From Actinomycetota bacterium (GTDB taxonomy: Bacteria > Actinomycetota > CADDZG01 > WHSQ01), in NCBI GenBank assembly GCA_013817045.1, contig JACDDL010000003.1:1-41365 (forward strand): DNA of 41,365 nt. The letters are read 5' to 3'. The position numbers and the translations under genes were made by a program. Positions within the stretch are counted from its first letter, which is position 1; the number at the start of each line of letters is the position of its first letter. This document shows positions 28,479 through 41,365 of this stretch, piece by piece. The notes under the pieces were generated by a model. It saw nothing but the letters and a program-made list of their open reading frames with translations, did not search any database and was not told the origin of the DNA.

Positions 28479-29489
28479 TCAGTTGAGGTGCAGCCCGCTG
28501 CCCTCGCATCTATAGACCGCGGCGCCGGGCCGGCACCCGTCTCGTCCGTCGCCTCCGAACAGCCCGTTGCTGCCTCCGCCGCCGTCCAGTAGATCGCCCC
28601 CATCCTCACCGTAGGCGGTGTCGTCACCACGCTGGGCGAACAGCCTGTCGCCGCCCATTCCTCCTGCCATTACGTCATCGTCCGCGCCGCCGTAGAGCTC
28701 GTCGGCCCCACCCCCTCCGTGAAGGGTGTCGGCTCCGGACCCCCCCGTTACGAAGTCGCCGCCGGCCTTTCCGTCCGCGAAATCGGCACCCGGCGCGGCA
28801 TTGATCCAATCGGCTCCGAATCCGCCGTCGAGTCGATCCCCACCGCCCGAACCGTAGAGCTCGTCGCTTCCACGTCCGCCGGCCAGCCGGTCGTTGCCGT
28901 CGTTTCCAAGGAGGGCATCCCGGCCGGCCCCACCTACCAGAAGATTGGCTCCGTCGCTCCCGACGAGGAAGTCCGGGCCCCGTCCTCCGACGAGGTTCTC
29001 GACGTCCGTCCCGATGGTGTCGCCTTCGCCCGCCGCTCCGTCATTGCGTCCACCCCCCTGGAGATCTGCGGCAACCGGTTCGTGCTGTCTGAAGTAGGAG
29101 ACTGTGTCCCGGCCACCCATACCGCCGCTCAGCCGGTCGGCTCCGGGGCCGCCCACCAGCAGATCGGCCTCCGAGGCTCCTCTCAGGCCGTCGGCGCCAC
29201 GGCCCCCGTCGAGGCTGTCCCGCCCTCCTTTGCCCTGGATCCGGTCACGTCCCGAACCTCCACACAACAGATCCCGCCTCGACCCGCCGACCAGGACGTC
29301 GTTGCCTCCCCTGCCCACCACCACGTCCCGCCCCGCCGTGCCGTGAAGGGTGTTGTCGCCGCCGTCACCCAGGAGCGTGGGGCGCTCGCCGAAGCAGGCT
29401 GGGCCCGCCGCAGCGGGCCTTGCGCCAAAGGCGAGCAGAGCGCCCGAAGCGCTGAGAGCGACAACGATCACCACCGTCCTTCGGATCAA
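28479..29489 (-). CDS. secreted RTX-repeat (haemolysin-type calcium-binding) protein
   Basis: A 336-residue protein. A signal peptide (LIRRTVVIVVALSASGALLA, cleavage near AAAGP) precedes about thirty calcium-binding nonapeptides of the form GGxGxDxLx, for example GRGGNDVLVGG, GKGGRDSLDGG and GNDGNDRLAGG, running almost to the end. There is no catalytic domain, and a short C-terminus with two Cys (GCRPGAAVYRCEG) ends the chain. The repeats should fold as a parallel beta roll outside the cell in calcium. The TTG at 29489 has GAAAGGAAGCAC upstream; the longer frame runs into a tRNA. It is probably an exported surface or matrix protein. Confidence 0.88.
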   Translation of the reverse strand: MIRRTVVIVVALSASGALLAFGARPAAAGPACFGERPTLLGDGGDNTLHGTAGRDVVVGRGGNDVLVGGSRRDLLCGGSGRDRIQGKGGRDSLDGGRGADGLRGASEADLLVGGPGADRLSGGMGGRDTVSYFRQHEPVAADLQGGGRNDGAAGEGDTIGTDVENLVGGRGPDFLVGSDGANLLVGGAGRDALLGNDGNDRLAGGRGSDELYGSGGGDRLDGGFGADWINAAPGADFADGKAGGDFVTGGSGADTLHGGGGADELYGGADDDVMAGGMGGDRLFAQRGDDTAYGEDGGDLLDGGGGSNGLFGGDGRDGCRPGAAVYRCEGSGLHLN

Positions 29490-29550
29490 GTGCTTCCTTT
29501 CAACCAACCCACCTTGTCCTGTTGAAGACTTGCCCAAAATACTTGAGAGA

Positions 29551-29556
29551 TAGACT
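29551..29556 (+). promoter_or_regulatory. -10 box immediately upstream of tRNA-Ser(GGA)
   Basis: TAGACT followed by seven bases and then base 1 of the mature tRNA. A possible -35, TTGCCC, lies 15 bp upstream. Confidence 0.5.
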
Positions 29557-29563
29557 CCTGCGC

Positions 29564-29650
29564 GGAGACGTGCGAGAGCGGCCGAATCGGCGCGACTGGA
29601 AATCGCGTGGCCCCGCAAGGGGTCCAAGGGTTCAAATCCCTTCGTCTCCG
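29564..29650 (+). tRNA. tRNA-Ser(GGA)
   Basis: An 87-base class II tRNA. The acceptor GGAGACG pairs with CGTCTCC, with G73. The anticodon stem CGCGA/TCGCG encloses CTGGAAA with GGA at 29598-29600, reading UCC/UCU. The long variable arm (GGCCCCGCAAGGGGTC) and TTCAAAT T-loop are present; CCA is not encoded. The next 218 bases hold only the SRP RNA promoter region. Confidence 0.97.
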
Positions 29651-29858
29651 CCCTCCTCCCGGTCCCAGCCATCGGACTGCTATGGATTTGCGTAAGGCAC
29701 GGCGCGTGAATGGCGGGCCAGCGCACTGGCGGCCGCTCCTGGGTCCTTCAAATCAGCGGACCGGGGAGGGCCGCTCGCCCGAGCCCTCAGACCGGCCGCC
29801 GTTCAACGTTCTGACTCCCCGTGGCGAGTCATCGGCGGGTGGAGGTGCGCCGGGGCGA

Positions 29859-33064: not shown

Positions 33065-34093
33065 ATGGAGTCACAGCAACTTCGTTCGACGGCCCAGGAG
33101 CTCGTCGCCGAGGGCAAGGGGATCCTCGCCGCCGATGAGAGCACCGGAAGCATCAAGAAGCGCTTCGACGGCATCGATGTCACATCCACGGAGGAAACCC
33201 GCCGCTCCTATCGCGAGATGCTCTTCGCCACGCCTGGAATCGGGGACTTCATCAGCGGTGCGATCTTGTACGACGAGACCATCCGCCAGCAGGCCGAGGA
33301 TGGAACGCCCCTCGTCGAGCTTCTCCAGAAGCAGGGGGTCATCCCGGGCATCAAGGTGGATACGGGAGCCAAAACCCTCGCAGGCGCGCCGGACGAGAAG
33401 GTGACCGAGGGCCTCGACGGGCTGCGGGAGCGTCTCGCCGAGTACGTCGAGCTCGGCGCCAGGTTCACCAAGTGGCGCGCCGTGATCACCATCGGCGAGG
33501 ATATTCCCAGCCCCTACTGCATCCAGGTGAACGCCCACGCGCTCGGCCGCTATGCGGCTCTGTCGCAGGAGGCGGGACTGGTCCCGATCATCGAGCCCGA
33601 GACGATGATGGACGGTGGCCACAGCATCCAGCAGCATCACCACGTGACCGAGCGAACCCTGCAGGCCGTTTTCCAGGAGCTGTATGACCAGCGGGTCGAG
33701 CTCGAGGGTGCCCTGCTCAAGATAAATATGGTGCTGTCGGGCACCGAGAATTCCCAGCAAGCCGGCATCGAGGAGGTCGCCGACAGGACCCTTCGCTGCC
33801 TTCTACGCACCGTTCCGCCAGCCGTGCCGGGCGTGGTGTTCCTTTCCGGAGGTCAGAGCGACGAGCAGGCTACCGCCCACCTGAACGAGATGAATCGAAG
33901 AAGCCCCCTTCCGTGGGAGCTGAGCTTCTCCTACGGGCGCGCTCTGCAGGCTCCTGCGCTCAAGGCCTGGAAGGGCGAACGGTCCAACTTCGAAGCCGGG
34001 CAGCGGGCGCTTCACCACCGGGCAAAGCTCAACGGCGCCGCTCGCTCGGGCAGCTACTCCTCGGACATGGAGAACGCCGCCCCAGCCGCCTGA
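33065..34093 (+). CDS. class I fructose-bisphosphate aldolase
   Basis: A 342-residue Schiff-base aldolase of the animal/plant type. Catalytic positions are present: Asp24 (LAADESTGSIKKR), Lys97 (VIPGIKVDTG), Lys136 (FTKWRAV), Glu177 (PIIEPE) and the Schiff-base Lys219 (LLKINMVLSG; Ile replaces the usual Pro), then VVFLSGGQSDEQA. It interconverts Fru-1,6-bisphosphate with DHAP and G3P, so it connects with the Fru-6-P made by the GlcNAc genes. The ATG has a strong AGGGGAGGAA site. The C-terminus lacks the terminal Tyr of the animal enzymes. Confidence 0.93.
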   Translation: MESQQLRSTAQELVAEGKGILAADESTGSIKKRFDGIDVTSTEETRRSYREMLFATPGIGDFISGAILYDETIRQQAEDGTPLVELLQKQGVIPGIKVDTGAKTLAGAPDEKVTEGLDGLRERLAEYVELGARFTKWRAVITIGEDIPSPYCIQVNAHALGRYAALSQEAGLVPIIEPETMMDGGHSIQQHHHVTERTLQAVFQELYDQRVELEGALLKINMVLSGTENSQQAGIEEVADRTLRCLLRTVPPAVPGVVFLSGGQSDEQATAHLNEMNRRSPLPWELSFSYGRALQAPALKAWKGERSNFEAGQRALHHRAKLNGAARSGSYSSDMENAAPAA

Positions 34094-34122
34094 GTGGGCC
34101 GAGGCTCGCCCTCACAGGCGGA

Positions 34123-34169
34123 CCGAGTGGGTCGTAAGTGCGTAAATCCACATCTCTCACCCCACTCGG
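34123..34169 (+). repeat. 9-bp inverted repeat between the aldolase gene and lysC
   Basis: CCGAGTGGG (34123-34131) and CCCACTCGG (34161-34169) are perfect complements enclosing a 29-base loop. No T tract follows, so it is not a normal terminator. GTCGTAAGT at 34131-34139 recurs at 34189-34197, the second copy holding the lysC -10 box. It may be an operator or transcript structure controlling lysC. Confidence 0.5.
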
Positions 34170-34192
34170 CGCGGTGCGACGAGGCGCTGTCG

Positions 34193-34198
34193 TAAGTT
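34193..34198 (+). promoter_or_regulatory. -10 box for a leaderless lysC mRNA
   Basis: TAAGTT seven bases before the lysC ATG, without a ribosome site between. Confidence 0.5.
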
Positions 34199-34205
34199 TG
34201 GTGGC

Positions 34206-35510
34206 ATGGCTCTAATCGTTCAGAAGTACGGCGGCACCTCGGTCGGCGATGCCGAGCGCATAAAGCGGGTGGCGGAGCGAGTGGTGGAGGCCGCCGACTC
34301 CGGGCAGCGCATATGCATCGTCGTCTCCGCAATGGGACACACCACCGACGAGCTCATGGAGCTCGCTTCACAGATCACCCCGGAGCCATTCGGTCGCGAG
34401 CTCGACATGCTGCTGACGGCGGGCGAGCGCATCTCGATGGCGCTTCTCACCATGGCAATCAACGAGCTGGGACGAAGGGCGATCTCGTTCACCGGGTCGC
34501 AAGCAGGCATCGTCACAGACACGACCCACGGCCGTGCGCGTATCGTCGAGGTGAAGGCGCGCCGGGTTCTCGAGGCGCTCGACGCCGACAACATCGTGAT
34601 CGTTGCCGGCTTTCAGGGGGTGTCGACCGACTTTGACATCACAACCCTGGGCCGGGGTGGCTCGGACACGACTGCGGTAGCCCTTGCAGCCGCCCTCCAT
34701 GCCGACGCATGTGAGATCTTCACCGACGTCGAAGGTGTTTTCACGGCCGACCCTCGCCTCGTCCCGGAAGCGCGCAAGCTGCACGCCGTCTCCTATGAAG
34801 AGATGCTCGAACTCTCCGCCAGTGGCGCCAAGGTTCTCATGCTTCGGAGCGTCGAGTACGCGCGCAACTACAAGGTCCTAACCCACGTCCGCTCGTCTTT
34901 TTCCGACGCCGAGGGCACCTGGGTAAGAGAGGAGGATGAACGTATGGAGCGCGCCATCATCTCGGCGGTTGCACACGATACCTCTGAAGCAAAAGTTTCG
35001 ATTCTTGGGGTGCCCGATAAGCCGGGCATCGCTTCGCACGTCTTCCGCCCTCTAGCCGACGAGGGAGTCAATGTCGACATGATCGTCCAGAACGTCGCGG
35101 CCGATGGACGCACCGACATTTCGTTCACCCTTCCAAAAGAAGACTTGCGGCGCGCCGAACCCATCCTGAATCAAGTTCGCGACAGAGTTGACGCCAGGGG
35201 CGTCGAGACCGATCCAGACATCGCCAAGGTCTCTCTCGTGGGTGCAGGTATGAAGAGCCACCCGGGCGTTGCCGCCGATATGTTCGACGCTCTTGCAGAC
35301 GCCGGCATCAACATCGACATCATTTCGACGTCTTCGATACGCGTGTCATGCGTAGTCCGGGCTACCGAAGTCACGGGGGCCGTCCGGGCGATTCACGATA
35401 AGTTCCACCTTGCCGAGGAGGCGGTAATGCGCGAGGCGCACCCATCGACGGTTACCGGCCAACTGCGTGCTCTCGATCCTGAGGGCCCGGCCCCCGGCGA
35501 TGGACTATGA
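34206..35510 (+). CDS. lysC: aspartate kinase, with internal beta-subunit start
   Basis: A 434-residue aspartokinase, first step of the lysine, threonine and methionine pathway. The kinase domain has [38 protein letters not shown] and [15 protein letters not shown]; two ACT domains follow from about 255 ([18 protein letters not shown] and [19 protein letters not shown]), where lysine and threonine usually bind. The length fits the actinobacterial alpha subunit. Met247 is preceded by a strong internal ribosome site, so a beta subunit of 188 residues is probably made as well. asd overlaps by 4 bp. Confidence 0.95.
34928..34946 (+). promoter_or_regulatory. internal ribosome-binding site and start codon for the LysC beta subunit
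   Basis: AGAGGAGG at 34928-34935, eight bases before an in-frame ATG at 34944 (Met247). The product, beginning [17 protein letters not shown], would be the ACT-domain regulatory chain. The same arrangement is known in Corynebacterium and Bacillus aspartokinase, where beta starts near residue 250. Confidence 0.75.
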
Positions 35511-36601: not shown

Positions 36602-36626
36602 GAACTCCTATAGAGTCAGAGCCACT

Positions 36627-38006
36627 TTGTCTGCCCTGGAGGAATTGCGGACCGCTGCTTGGTACGGTGACCGCACCCTTGACTTGTCCTTTCCTCCCGA
36701 ATGGAATGTCTCAACCCTGAACCCCGAGACTCCTCCCCCGTTGTCCGATTCTCAGATCGTCCGGGCTCTGGCTCGTCCTGTCGGACAGCCGCCCTTGAGG
36801 ATCCTGGCTGCCGAGAAGGTACGGCCTCTGATTATCGTCGACGACCTCACGCGCCCGACTCCGTGCGCCAGGGTCATGCCCTTCTTGCTCGAAGAGTTCT
36901 TGCAGGCCGGCATCGGTGCCTCGGACGTTACGGTCTTGATGGCGACCGGTACTCATGGAGCTCCTCGAGCGGACGCCATGGCGAAGAAGATCGGCCCGGA
37001 AGCAGCGGCTCAGTGCCGCCTGATTGTGCACGACGACACTCGCGATGCGGTCAGGGTCGGTCGTACGAGCTTCGGGACGGCTGTGTATGTGAATCGCGAG
37101 GTGCCGGCAAGCGATCTCATCGTTGGCATAGGGGGCATATACCCCCAGCACTCAACCGGCTTTGGAGGCGGCTCCAAGCTTGCGCTCGGTGTCCTGGGGC
37201 GGCGCTCCATTACGAGGCTGCACTTCGGCCACAGCAGCTCGAAGGGTTCTTATGACGTAGACAACGACTTCAGAAGAGAGTTGGACGAGATCGCACGGAT
37301 TATTGGCCTGCGGTCCCTGGTTTCACTGCATGTTGACGCCGGTCGACGTCCCGTTCGTATCGCGAGTGGCGACTGGGAGCGCTACTACCGCGGTGAAGTG
37401 GCCTTCGCCAAGCAAGCGTACAGAGCACCTTTGCCGGATGGCGCAGATGTCGTGATCTCCAACGCGTATCCGATCGACGTGTCCCTGACCTTCATGCGGA
37501 GCAAAGGTGTAATACCGCTGGTTCACGCTCCGCCTCACGCTTCGAAGATCTTGATCTCCGCCTGCAGCGAGGGTGTTGGCCACCATGGCCTCTTCCCGTT
37601 CATAAGCACGTCGAAGTTCGATCGCCCAAGGCGTCTGGCGCGCTATGCCTTGGCTCGACCCAGGAGAATTCCCCAGATGGTTGCCGGCCGCCTCAAACGC
37701 AAGCTGGTGAGCTATTCCGGGAAGGGAACCCAGCCGGCCGGGCAGGCGGCTACCTTCCATGAGCAGCGGAAATCATCTTCTCCTATCTGGCTGTACCTTC
37801 CGGAGCAAGTGTCTTTGCCTGAGCGGATTCCCGGGATGCAGCAGGTGCATTCATGGCGGGGAATTCTCGATCGGGTGGGCGAGCAACATGCCGGGCGAGG
37901 CACCCTCGAGGTCGTGGTTTATCCGTGCTCTCCCCTGCAAGTACTCGACACCCACACGATGGAGAATGCTTCCCTGTCGTCGCCTGAGCTTCAGGGTGCC
38001 GACTAG
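36627..38006 (+). CDS. LarA-type nickel hydroxyacid racemase superfamily protein
   Basis: About 459 residues. The family landmarks appear in order: DDLTRPTP at 72-79, MATGTHGAP with His110, PQHSTGFGGGSK with His175 and Lys184, then HFGH at 199-202. In lactate racemase Lys184 carries the nickel-pincer cofactor and two histidines shuttle protons, so the catalytic set looks intact. The superfamily racemises or epimerises various 2-hydroxyacids. The gene converges on comB (45 bp between stops), making sulfolactate a plausible substrate. The start is unsure: TTG 36627 or TTG 36645, since no ATG precedes the domain. No larB, larC or larE is in view. Confidence 0.85.
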   Translation: MSALEELRTAAWYGDRTLDLSFPPEWNVSTLNPETPPPLSDSQIVRALARPVGQPPLRILAAEKVRPLIIVDDLTRPTPCARVMPFLLEEFLQAGIGASDVTVLMATGTHGAPRADAMAKKIGPEAAAQCRLIVHDDTRDAVRVGRTSFGTAVYVNREVPASDLIVGIGGIYPQHSTGFGGGSKLALGVLGRRSITRLHFGHSSSKGSYDVDNDFRRELDEIARIIGLRSLVSLHVDAGRRPVRIASGDWERYYRGEVAFAKQAYRAPLPDGADVVISNAYPIDVSLTFMRSKGVIPLVHAPPHASKILISACSEGVGHHGLFPFISTSKFDRPRRLARYALARPRRIPQMVAGRLKRKLVSYSGKGTQPAGQAATFHEQRKSSSPIWLYLPEQVSLPERIPGMQQVHSWRGILDRVGEQHAGRGTLEVVVYPCSPLQVLDTHTMENASLSSPELQGAD

Positions 38007-38051: not shown

Positions 38052-38765
38052 TCACGGATCGGATGTCGCCTTGACTTCAGCGTCGTCGAAGACGAAGGTC
38101 GTCCTGAGATCGTCGCAATGCTCGAGTATGAAGTCCAGATCATCCGTTTGATCCGTGATCTGCAGATAACGCGAGCTCTTGCCACCCAGGAGCGCGTCTA
38201 CGGGCAGCCCTGACCAGCGTTTGATGACATCGCTGGTCGTACCAAGAGGCAGGTAACCTTCAGCCACAAGAAGCTCCGCCATCCACGCACAACACATCTG
38301 ATCCTCTTCCCGGAATTCCCCCCTGGTACTGGCCCCCATCAACACTACGGTCGGGTGATGGTTGCAGATCTGTCGCACCTGAGCCGAGAAGTTTCGCAGG
38401 CAGGCCACATACACTTTGTCAGCCGACCTGGCTTCGTGAAGCAGCCTCGTGCCCGAAGTCGACAGCAAGATCACCGGGCGAGAGGTGTCGGGAAACGCTG
38501 CGAGTCGCACAGGGCTGTTATTCATGTCGAACCCGAACGGCATATAACCGCCAAGCTCTCCCACCAGCAAAGGACGATCTAGCCTGGCGGCAAGTGGAAC
38601 CGCCGCTTCGAGAGAAGGCACCGGAAAGCACCGCCGACCCGTCGTGACCGCCGTGACCGCCGTCGTAGTGGAGCGAATAACGTCCACAGCGACAATGGTG
38701 TGGCCACAGGCGTACTCGGCGTCTAGCTTTTCGTGAAAACAGTCGATGACAACAGTCTTCTTCAC
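38052..38765 (-). CDS. comB: 2-phosphosulfolactate phosphatase homologue
   Basis: A 237-residue protein of the ComB family, which removes phosphate from 2-phospho-3-sulfolactate. Landmarks: AVDVIRSTTTAVTAV (28-35 core), LLVGELGGYMPFGFDMNNSP with the GE and GFDxxNSP motifs at 69-85, LSTSGTRLLHEA, ACLRNFSA and EFREEDQMCCAWMAELL. The GTG at 38765 lies 4 bp after the comA stop, so the two form an operon. Base composition is lower in GC than the 8-35 kb region, suggesting acquisition. The family is best known from coenzyme M synthesis in archaea and from spore sulfolactate in Bacillus. Confidence 0.88.
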   Translation of the reverse strand: MKKTVVIDCFHEKLDAEYACGHTIVAVDVIRSTTTAVTAVTTGRRCFPVPSLEAAVPLAARLDRPLLVGELGGYMPFGFDMNNSPVRLAAFPDTSRPVILLSTSGTRLLHEARSADKVYVACLRNFSAQVRQICNHHPTVVLMGASTRGEFREEDQMCCAWMAELLVAEGYLPLGTTSDVIKRWSGLPVDALLGGKSSRYLQITDQTDDLDFILEHCDDLRTTFVFDDAEVKATSDP

Positions 38766-38769
38766 CTGT

Positions 38770-39582
38770 CTACCGTGCAGATTGGATCGTTTGAGGAGTA
38801 CCTTTCGGCAGGGGCCGCAGGTTGGCTTTGCCGAAAGCATCGGAATGAAGGCCACGCCTGTAGATCTCAACCCGAAGAAGCTCCTCGAGGCGCACGTTTG
38901 ACAAGCGCACCATAGGGCCAAAGTGATCCATGAAGGCGAACTGGCTGGCCTTATTGGGGGCTTCGAAGGTCACCTTCTCCAAGCCGAACGCTTCGACGAA
39001 CCGATCCGCCAAGGCAGGATTCATGTGCCCCTCGACATCAAACAGACCGACCCGCTCTGCGTCCTCTCGTGCTTCGACGACGATTTGAAGAGCACCTGCA
39101 TCGAGCCATCGGTGTCCCTCGCCGATTAGCTCATCGACGATGTGATCGCTGAACGCCCCCCCATGCTTCTTGCCTAGCTCATATTGAACCTCTAACCCCC
39201 GTGCGACAGCCATTGCGACGATTTCGCTTGCGTCGATTTCCAAGTCGGTGAACCCCTCTCCGCACTCGATTCGACTGATGCCGAGTTCTGCGCATAGATC
39301 GAGGTATGCGGGGAGATGTCCTTGCGCGGCTGCAATCTCAAAAGGCCCTCCTCCCGTCAGGGTTGGTACGTTGTGCCGCGCAGCAGCTGCTAGCTTCTCG
39401 CGCGTTGCGGACTCGTTGGCTATCAACCAGCATGCCATGGACAGCTTCAGGTCGGTCATTAGGTGTCCGCTTTGTTCGAGGTGACTTCCCACGGTGAGCG
39501 GGTCGTAGCCTGGGTCAAAAGGACTGGTCAATCGACCGATGCTCTGTACGCCTATTCGATCGAGAAAATCGCCTGTACGCAT
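38770..39582 (-). CDS. comA: phosphosulfolactate synthase homologue
   Basis: A 270-residue TIM-barrel protein. ComA adds sulfite to phosphoenolpyruvate giving (R)-phosphosulfolactate. Matching blocks: TDLKLSM (44-50), LTGGGPFEIA (75-84), RIECGEGFTDL, QYELGKKHGG (133-142, the conserved lysines), VVEAREDAERVG, FEAPNKASQFAF (206-217), VRLSNVRLEELLRVE and RRGLHSDAFGK. The ATG at 39582 has GAAGGG upstream; the frame extends into the insertion sequence but similarity does not. It heads the comA-comB operon, with an ISL3-type element 69 bp upstream of its start. Confidence 0.87.
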   Translation of the reverse strand: MRTGDFLDRIGVQSIGRLTSPFDPGYDPLTVGSHLEQSGHLMTDLKLSMACWLIANESATREKLAAAARHNVPTLTGGGPFEIAAAQGHLPAYLDLCAELGISRIECGEGFTDLEIDASEIVAMAVARGLEVQYELGKKHGGAFSDHIVDELIGEGHRWLDAGALQIVVEAREDAERVGLFDVEGHMNPALADRFVEAFGLEKVTFEAPNKASQFAFMDHFGPMVRLSNVRLEELLRVEIYRRGLHSDAFGKANLRPLPKGTPQTIQSAR

Positions 39583-39650: not shown

Positions 39651-39677
39651 GAGACCTCGCGAAAACGTGGGATGGCC
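39651..39677 (+). repeat. left inverted repeat of the insertion sequence
   Basis: Imperfect terminal repeat; 18 of 27 bases match the right end, with CGCGA and CGTGGGATG conserved. Confidence 0.75.
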
Positions 39678-39768
39678 GTCTGATCTGACGGGGTGAAATC
39701 CGTCTGAGATGAACGGAGCCCCTCCACACTTGGCTGTGACGAAACAGACCGAGGAAAGGAGAGGCTCC

Positions 39769-40976
39769 GTGCCTGACTCTATGTCGGTGCGCCTGCACCT
39801 GTACCGCATTCGCGTCATCGAAGTCATGATCGATCTACCCGAGCGGCTTGAGGTCGTGGTGCGCGATCTGCGCTCAGTGGTGCGCTGCCCGTGGTGCAGC
39901 TTCAAGACCTCCAAGGTGCACGAGACTCGGCGCGTCAAGGTCAAGGACCTCGCGCGTGGCACCCAGAAGGTGACGCTCATCTGGCTGCGCCGCCGCTTTG
40001 AGTGCACCAACTGCGGCGAGCGCCACACCGAGACACACCCGGCGTTCGACAAGAGGATGACAGCGCGCCTGACGCGCGCCATCGTCAGAGACGCTCGGCA
40101 CCTCTCAATCACCGAGATCGGACGTCGCTACGTATTGAGCTGGCACACGGTCATGGCCGTGGTCAAGCAGTGGTCGGCTCTACTGGCCGAGCGGCGCGCC
40201 AAGCGGCCCTGCCGGGTGTTGCTGGTCGACGAGACCTCGCTCAGGCGCCGGCACCGCTACGTCACCGTGATCTCCAATGGCGAGACCGGCGAGGTCATCG
40301 GGATCGTTCGTCACCGCGATTTCCGTGCCCTGTCTGGCTTTCTCACGGCCCAGGGACGGCGCTGGTGCGCCAAGGTCGAGGTCGTGGTCACCGACGGATC
40401 GCCGAGCTACCGGGGCGCCATCGAGCGCCATCTCGGTCACGCTTCCCACGTTGTTGACCGCTTTCATGTCGCGCGCTGGTTCGCCTCCGGGCTCATCGAG
40501 GTCAGAAGGCGCGTGCAGCGCACGGGAGAGCCCGGCGAGTCACCGGTGTTCTCGCCAACGATCTTTAGAACGCGCTACCTTCAGCTCGCCCGCGCAGACG
40601 AGCTCGACTCCGATCGCTTCGCCCGTCTCGCCCACGCGCTCATGCAGGACCCCGAGCTGTGGCACGCGTGGCGGCTGCTGCAACAGCTCTACGAGATCTA
40701 CGATGCACCGGACGAAGCCGAGGCCGCCCAACGGGTCGAGGCGTTCGTGTACGCGTGGGAGGCGGCGCCGATCCCGGAGTTCCGCTCGGTGCTCAAGGCG
40801 CTTGCGGATGGCTGCCCGAGATCCTCGCCTTCCACCGCTGCGGGCGCATCACCAACGGGCGCCTGGAGGGGACGAACAACAAGCTGGGCGCGCTCAAGCG
40901 CATCGCTTACGGCTTCGTCAACGCCGACAATTTCGCCGCAAGAGCGTTGCTGTGGTGCCCGCCAGTGGCATCATGA
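39769..40976 (+). pseudogene. ISL3-family transposase, frameshifted
   Basis: The N-terminal zinc finger (RCPWCSFKTSKV, then CTNCGERHTE) and the DDE core (VLLVDETSLRRRHRYVTVI, VVVTDGSPSYRGAIERH, HVVDRFHVARWF) read in one frame to about 40808. The conserved C-terminus (WLPEILAFHRCGRITNGRLE, then GTNNKLGALKRIAYGF) reads in another frame to the TGA at 40974. One base appears lost near 40808-40811, between GCGGA and TGG. Start GTG 39769 follows GGAAAGGAGAGG. Either the element is dead or this is a sequencing error; apart from this the gene is full length. Confidence 0.85.
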
Positions 40977-40994
40977 GAGAGCCGAGTTGGTGGG

Positions 40995-41022
40995 GGTTCA
41001 TCCCACGAAATCGCGGGGAACC
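40995..41022 (-). repeat. right inverted repeat of the insertion sequence
   Basis: Complementary to the left end (see the element entry). Adjacent bases GGCTTTTT form the right copy of the target duplication. Confidence 0.75.
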
Positions 41023-41115
41023 GGCTTTTTCGCGCGTAGACGGCCCTCGGCTGAGTGCTAAATCCACGATGCCCTATCGTGGATGCCAATGGAGAACAAG
41101 GGAAGCGAGGGACAG

Positions 41116-41365
41116 ATGAACTCTAACGGGGTTCCCGCCCTTGTGCTGAGTCTCGGGCGCAGCCCGATCCAACACGGACCCTTGAGCGTAGTTCGGAGTC
41201 TCGGGCGAATCGGAGTTCCGATGTATACGATATGCGATAGCGATTCTCCGGTTATGAAGTCCCGGTTTCTCGAGAAGGCTTTTACCTGGAGCGCCGACGA
41301 GGGTTCCATGGAGGACACGCTTGAGTTTCTATTGGATGTCGGGCGTCAGATCGGGCGTCGCGCCC
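41116..41365 (+). CDS. ATP-grasp-type ligase, N-terminus only
   Basis: The first 83 residues are visible, running off the window. VPALVLSLGRSPIQHGPLSV, then VRSLGRIGVPMYTICDSDSP and KSRFLEKAF, match the pre-ATP-grasp domain of carboxylate-amine ligases and carbamoyl-phosphate-synthase-like proteins, often found in surface-polymer or small-molecule islands. The ATG at 41116 is chosen for GCGAGGGACAG upstream; in-frame ATGs at 41089 and 41083 are alternatives. It lies 85 bp beyond the insertion sequence target duplication. Confidence 0.7.
   Translation, partial: MNSNGVPALVLSLGRSPIQHGPLSVVRSLGRIGVPMYTICDSDSPVMKSRFLEKAFTWSADEGSMEDTLEFLLDVGRQIGRRA

Follow-up and report, generated by a model that had tools for sequence, protein, structure and literature searches.

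A divergent ComA/ComB gene pair accompanied by an ATP-grasp ligase: a candidate bacterial module for sulfolactate-type conjugates

The comA*-comB* gene pair of an uncultured Actinomycetota bacterium belongs to a small module whose third recurrent member encodes an ATP-grasp ligase. The window is the whole stretch of DNA that was analysed (41,365 nucleotides), and ComA* refers to a separate clade of the PF02679 family, with ComB* as its partner. Judged from the sequences, the most likely function of ComA*, ComB* and the ligase is to form sulfolactate, or a 2-hydroxy acid closely akin to it and derived from PEP, and to attach this acid to an amine at the expense of ATP. The narrower proposal, in which sulfolactate is made with sulfite as the nucleophile and is then ligated to an amine, is advanced tentatively, at a little less than even confidence. 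The acceptor is probably an envelope glycan or a short peptide-like molecule, which would locate the product at the cell surface. The enzymes represent known superfamilies, and the ComA* clade and the module appear to be undescribed in the searchable literature, in which no paper was found with both sulfolactate and ATP-grasp, and no described route for the biosynthesis of sulfolactate conjugates. The features of the locus are collected in Table 1; the LarA gene, the ISL3 element and the start of the ligase gene had not figured in the original prediction made for this DNA.

Table 1. Features of the comA*-comB* locus (positions within the window).
Feature	Position	Strand	Remarks
LarA-family nickel-pincer-nucleotide enzyme	36615..38006	+	convergent with comB*; start codon approximate; PF09861 139.7 bits
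comB*, 2-phosphosulfolactate-phosphatase-family enzyme	38052..38765	-	237 aa; GTG at 38765, stop ends 38052; PF04029
comA*, divergent phosphosulfolactate-synthase-family enzyme	38770..39582	-	270 aa; ATG at 39582, stop ends 38770; PF02679
ISL3-family insertion	39655..41018 (ends approximate)	.	between comA* and ligase gene; inverted repeats, transposase
ATP-grasp ligase gene, 5′ part	41083..41365	+	cut by contig end; same-genus full-length relative

The homologues of comA and comB are real and adjacent, as had been predicted, with comB* located downstream of comA* across a gap of 4 bp. ComA* matches PF02679 with 149 bits (E 1.9e-43; Pfam cut-off 25.2) and ComB* matches PF04029 with 114.5 bits (E 5.5e-33). 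The profile search that had been proposed as a check was thus successful for the Pfam families, but the NCBIfam equivalog cut-offs were missed. ComA* reaches 140.9 of the 280 bits required by arch_ComA TIGR03849, an archaeal model, so that the shortfall lowers the ComA assignment without excluding it, and ComB* stays far under every ComB equivalog cut-off (best 80.5 vs 235 bits). These low scores count against the sulfolactate proposal. The nearest solved relatives of ComA* are the phosphosulfolactate (PSL) synthases of M. jannaschii and B. subtilis, and those of ComB* are three ComB-family structures (2yyv, 1vr0, 2z0j); the conserved ComB motifs D, R, GE, NSP and GT are present. An orthologous pair is found in a same-genus genome (G007, locus L010), and the dN/dS values against it, 0.10 for comA* and 0.15 for comB*, indicate that both genes are under purifying selection; the value of the neighbouring asd gene is similar (0.14).

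The predicted fold of ComA* is best matched by 1qwg (TM 0.83/0.89) and 1u83. In the M. jannaschii numbering, the charged positions D20, K43, K60, E79, E103, E133, K137, E168, R170, E171, E205, K209, E237 and R240 are kept, and likewise Q212 and N227. K137 of the M. jannaschii enzyme is the catalytic lysine, and the roles of individual ComA residues are read here from their conservation. The claim that the core motifs of the family had been retained is mostly right, R244 being the one canonical charged position to be changed (R244H). Elsewhere, GWGT at 45-48 is replaced by SMAC, and the further substitutions are T76G, S105G, M/D138H and G173A. They are common to all or nearly all 16 members, position 76 being S instead of G in one of them. 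In the predicted model, the substituted positions lie at or just past the C-terminal ends of strands 2 to 6 and 8, which in such a barrel would place them on the active-site face. In the compared proteins of the PSL-synthase clade, among them three from bacterial coenzyme M clusters (Nocardioides, Mycolicibacterium, Xanthobacter), T76, S105, R244 and [GA][WF]G at 45-47 are kept. ComA* may accordingly combine conserved PEP chemistry with an altered nucleophile site. Since it forms a distinct clade with altered residues on the probable active-site face, the name phosphosulfolactate synthase applies to ComA* only conditionally.

The same residues lead to the strongest alternative, which keeps the logic of the module and assumes that the nucleophile joined to PEP by ComA* is not sulfite, after which a different 3-substituted lactate would be processed by ComB*, LarA and the ligase. 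Because T76, S105, G173, R244 and the 45-48 loop are near-invariant in the sampled PSL synthases and changed in ComA*, sulfite is perhaps not the nucleophile. The concerted, class-specific nature of the substitutions at the modelled strand ends argues for this alternative, as do the replacements by smaller side chains, of which there are several. Nevertheless, the charged residues on the PEP side are the same as in the PSL synthases, sulfolactate is indicated by the ComB partner and by a gene resembling sulfolactate dehydrogenase at one related locus (L024), and no recurrent candidate gene for making a nucleophile is present beside the module; on balance, the alternative is considered rather unlikely. 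Its furthest extension, in which ComA* would be a new PEP-conjugating synthase using a non-sulfite nucleophile, the product would be a 3-substituted 2-hydroxy acid of an unknown class, coupled by the ligase to an acceptor in the envelope, and the three-gene core would have spread between phyla, is judged unlikely.

Members of the ComA* clade are recognised by the motifs K-[LI]-S-M-A-C and GLHSD. When GTDB genomes were scanned with three aligned relatives as the query, 16 ComA* loci were returned, and with the window included there are 17 distinct loci, i.e., 16 further genomes. The hosts belong to Actinomycetota, Acidobacteriota, Ignavibacteriota, Chloroflexota (Ktedonobacter) and the gammaproteobacteria (Spongiibacteraceae), together with one unidentified bacterium. 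The distribution is rare and patchy, with ComA* in four of the 397 sampled genomes of the window's phylum. Any PF02679 gene is carried by 37 of these 397 genomes, so the presence of a ComA-family gene is not in itself unusual for a bacterium. Two trees were built from ComA*, 23 or 22 other bacterial ComA-family genes, M. jannaschii ComA and B. subtilis YitD, the second also including four plasmid-borne proteins. The 16 aligned ComA* members form one group in both (support 97/95 and 99/97), apart from the clade containing the enzymes of methanogens, Bacillus and alkene oxidisers; the branches are long and the deep order is unsure. Horizontal transfer is suggested by the mixing of phyla within the group, where, e.g., Ignavibacteria are joined with Nocardioides (97/95 in the first tree). 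A viral origin was rejected, as viral contigs contain no relative. Carriage of ComA* on plasmids was rejected too, since identity does not exceed 32% in the best plasmid matches listed, and four that were examined represent other ComA classes.

A third class of PF02679 genes, with the motif KFAGG, was also observed, at the loci L013, L012, L107, L109, L110, L112 and L129. The first of these (L013, G007:C3:979-1722) is the second PF02679 gene of the same-genus genome. The class is devoid of K137, D20, R170 and Q212 of the PSL synthases, and, as far as the residues can tell, a PSL synthase role for the G007 gene is unlikely. The Salinibacter gene of this class is annotated as phosphosulfolactate synthase and adjoins MmgE/PrpD, and the same arrangement was seen by eye in genome G001. 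In another genome, a ComA-like gene split into two ORFs is duplicated in inverted orientation; the copies (G012:C133:13438-14162 and 34053-34777) have the same scores and are separated by about 20 kb.

The linkage of the ligase to the pair was established by clustering the ORFs around all ComA* loci. This inspection of related neighbourhoods, which had been suggested earlier, places comB* near comA* in 17 of 17 loci and the ATP-grasp ligase in all 16 loci at which comB* is not cut by the contig end. Two of these loci need comment. At L029 the contig holds just the first 47 codons of the ligase gene, and the apparent remainder ends another contig of that genome; at L024 the orthologous ligase domain is located about 5 kb downstream, in one ORF (L024:16955-19675) with a FemAB-like acetyltransferase domain. 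The fragment in the window is 86% identical over 91 residues to the same-genus copy (L010:9494-10789), and the family members are 39-50% identical to that copy. At the control loci with other ComA-family genes, several of them on short contigs, comB* and the ligase were each found in 0 of 23. A chance neighbourhood is ruled out by the occurrence of the ligase in 16/16 ComA* loci vs 0/23 control loci. The pairwise identities of ComA*, ComB* and the ligase are correlated (r 0.62-0.79, permutation p 0.0002-0.004).

The ATP-grasp fold and the metal-binding motif are present in the full-length relatives, the window copy being truncated. A structure search returned generic ATP-grasp folds only, and among solved structures none has clear full-length sequence similarity to the ligase (best 27.7 bits). 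In the phylum sample, ligases above 600 bits, represented by two full-length copies, occur only in ComA* genomes. Relatives below 400 bits are found without ComA* in other Actinomycetota, some of them in polysaccharide clusters, and the ligase family is thus broader than the module. A gammaproteobacterial ligase contig (L124:7084-11556) carries a CapA/PGA_cap gene and two more ATP-grasp genes, a set that suggests a peptide-like capsule product.

The lower-scoring ligase relatives without ComA* also favour a second alternative, in which the pathway would stop at free sulfolactate, serving as an osmolyte or spore-type solute, and the neighbouring ligase would have an unrelated part in polysaccharide synthesis. 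There is a precedent in Bacillus, whose ComA/ComB homologues make sulfolactate for spores. This reading is distinctly improbable, because the ligase accompanies every informative comA*-comB* locus across five phyla, its divergence tracks that of ComA* and ComB*, and its highest-scoring forms are confined to ComA* genomes of the phylum sample. The ligase makes a conjugate more likely than a free solute. Of the three products offered by the original prediction, the conjugate and the precursor of a new compound fit the presence of the ligase in every informative related locus, and the solute has lost ground.

Several other genes recur around the pair. A SAM methyltransferase is present in nine ComA* loci and a particular sulfotransferase in three (L010, L011, L034). 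At L034, a single ORF of 1023 aa (L034:9274-12357) unites ligase, methyltransferase and sulfotransferase, and this fusion is a strong sign that the three work together. Polysaccharide or capsule genes occur near about two thirds of the loci, as tested on representatives and extended to the remainder by clustering. They include sugar-phosphate transferases, Wzx-type flippases, glycosyltransferases, polysaccharide deacetylases and CapA. Enzymes of 2-hydroxy acids form another recurrent set, which would fit sulfolactate or a close analogue. A LarA-family gene is found at the window, L010, L020 and L030, in three lineages; L024 carries an Ldh_2 dehydrogenase for which NCBIfam gives L-sulfolactate dehydrogenase as the best match (252 bits, cut-off 500), and L026 an FMN-dependent dehydrogenase together with a D-2-hydroxyacid dehydrogenase.

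The LarA protein of the window has the Lar_N domain but scores 177 bits against the NCBIfam cut-off of 500, and its nearest solved relative is the malate racemase Mar2. Compared with the L. plantarum enzyme, for which residue roles are given in PMC11770544 and PMC12611868, it retains the counterparts of R75, K184, H200 and H108. Opposite His174 there is Gln in the window and L010, and Asn at L020 and L030; three of these four proteins have a His at the next position. Since Gln or Asn aligns with the second catalytic His, this LarA clade may not racemise; LarA enzymes with a single His exist, their activity still awaiting assignment (PMC12611868). The nickel-pincer cofactor can probably be made by the organism, as its own genome has LarC and LarE matches by search and, by reading, a LarB-like ORF adjoining LarC.

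The preferred sulfolactate-conjugate reading can be arranged as a short pathway. ComA* would join PEP and sulfite to phosphosulfolactate, and ComB* would dephosphorylate it to 3-sulfolactate. In some lineages, that of the window included, a LarA-type enzyme would then act on the 2-hydroxy-acid carbon. The ATP-grasp ligase would activate the carboxylate and join it in an amide bond to an amine, probably of an envelope glycan or short peptide-like acceptor, with methylation and sulfation following in some lineages. Against this reading stand the use of ATP-grasp folds by carboxylases as well, the generic nature of the nearest solved folds, and the state of the window locus itself, which has no polysaccharide genes nearby, is devoid of the sulfotransferase of its same-genus sister genome and bears an insertion close to comA*.

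This insertion is an ISL3-family element with inverted repeats at 39655-39674 and 40999-41018. Its flanks, GGCTTTTCG and GGCTTTTTCG, are near-identical over 9-10 bp, which suggests a fairly recent event. The transposase matches NF033550 with 210 bits, and the match within its ORF (window 39709-41061) stops at residue 366 of 450 aa; the gene is probably frameshifted near the C-terminus, as the typical C-terminus seems, by eye, to run on in another frame. On one flank, the locus is bordered by dnaX, recR-like, aldolase, ask and asd genes. Elsewhere in the window, an ORF at 28482-29726 encodes an RTX-type calcium-binding repeat protein, with partial matches only. A separate question is whether the copy in the window is now in decay, having been silenced by the insertion. 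The element lies 72 bp upstream of comA*, at the place where G007 has its sulfotransferase gene, and both the insertion and the missing gene would agree with decay. The ORFs are intact, synteny with the same-genus genome is kept, and dN/dS is 0.10-0.18 for comA*, comB*, larA and the ligase part, a value that mostly reflects the time before the insertion; decay with silencing is seen as an unlikely state for this copy.

The weakest explanation, a coenzyme M or sulfoacetaldehyde pathway with sulfolactate as the intermediate, could appeal to the ComC-family enzyme at L024 and to an unlinked ComD/ComE-like pair in the L023 genome (123 and 127 bits, below the cut-offs), but it is highly improbable and for the organism itself largely ruled out, since a search for Ldh_2/ComC and ComD in its own genome (about 94% complete) found no ComC family gene and ComD only below threshold, ComD exceeds the cut-off in 0 of the 16 others, and in the known bacterial clusters ComA is followed by lyase-family genes (PMC11507031). 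The absence of a coenzyme M pathway beside the pair, asserted earlier, is thus upheld, and neither spore nor alkene-oxidation genes appear among the NCBIfam matches of the larger window ORFs tested, again as predicted. The split decarboxylase pair of the L023 genome (L125:6839-8121) adjoins a cyclase-family gene, and both subunits have sulfopyruvate decarboxylase as the best match, yet below the cut-offs.

Sulfolactate is one of the organosulfonates degraded by environmental microbes, and few organisms are known to make it. If a conserved comA*-comB*-ligase core acts as proposed in five phyla, it would represent a new source of sulfolactate and a route to a sulfolactate-type conjugate. If ComA* used another nucleophile, it would define a new class of PEP-based enzymes forming carbon-heteroatom bonds. 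The module is compact and recognisable by its sequences, and a direct test would need no more than three purified proteins.

The module can be compared with several known systems. The methanogen ComA-ComB system (M. jannaschii ComA, 1qwg) employs the same two enzyme families, and the 16 residues listed above, D20 to R240, are kept in ComA*. The two ComA proteins share about 30% identity, and GWGT, T76, S105, G173 and R244 of the methanogen enzyme are replaced; in addition, the window genome has no ComC family gene and no ComD above the cut-off, and its ComA* and ComB* are partnered with an ATP-grasp ligase. B. subtilis YitD (ComA homologue, 1u83) and YitC (ComB homologue) are likewise bacterial, but YitD groups with methanogen ComA in the canonical clade, not with ComA*. 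The coenzyme M clusters of Xanthobacter Py2, Nocardioides JS614 and Mycolicibacterium NBB4 also contain a bacterial PF02679 enzyme; it belongs to the canonical clade and lies beside genes of the fumarate/adenylosuccinate-lyase family, in clusters with no comB* or ligase match. Compared with the LarA superfamily of lactate, malate and other 2-hydroxy acid racemases, the window protein retains the R, K and H that bind the cofactor as well as the first catalytic His, whereas Gln or Asn aligns with the second in the LarA proteins near ComA*. Finally, the ligase shares the ATP-grasp fold and the conserved D-x-N-P-R with ATP-grasp carboxylate-amine ligases, i.e., the L-amino acid ligases 3vot and 4wd3, PylC and PRK12767-type proteins.
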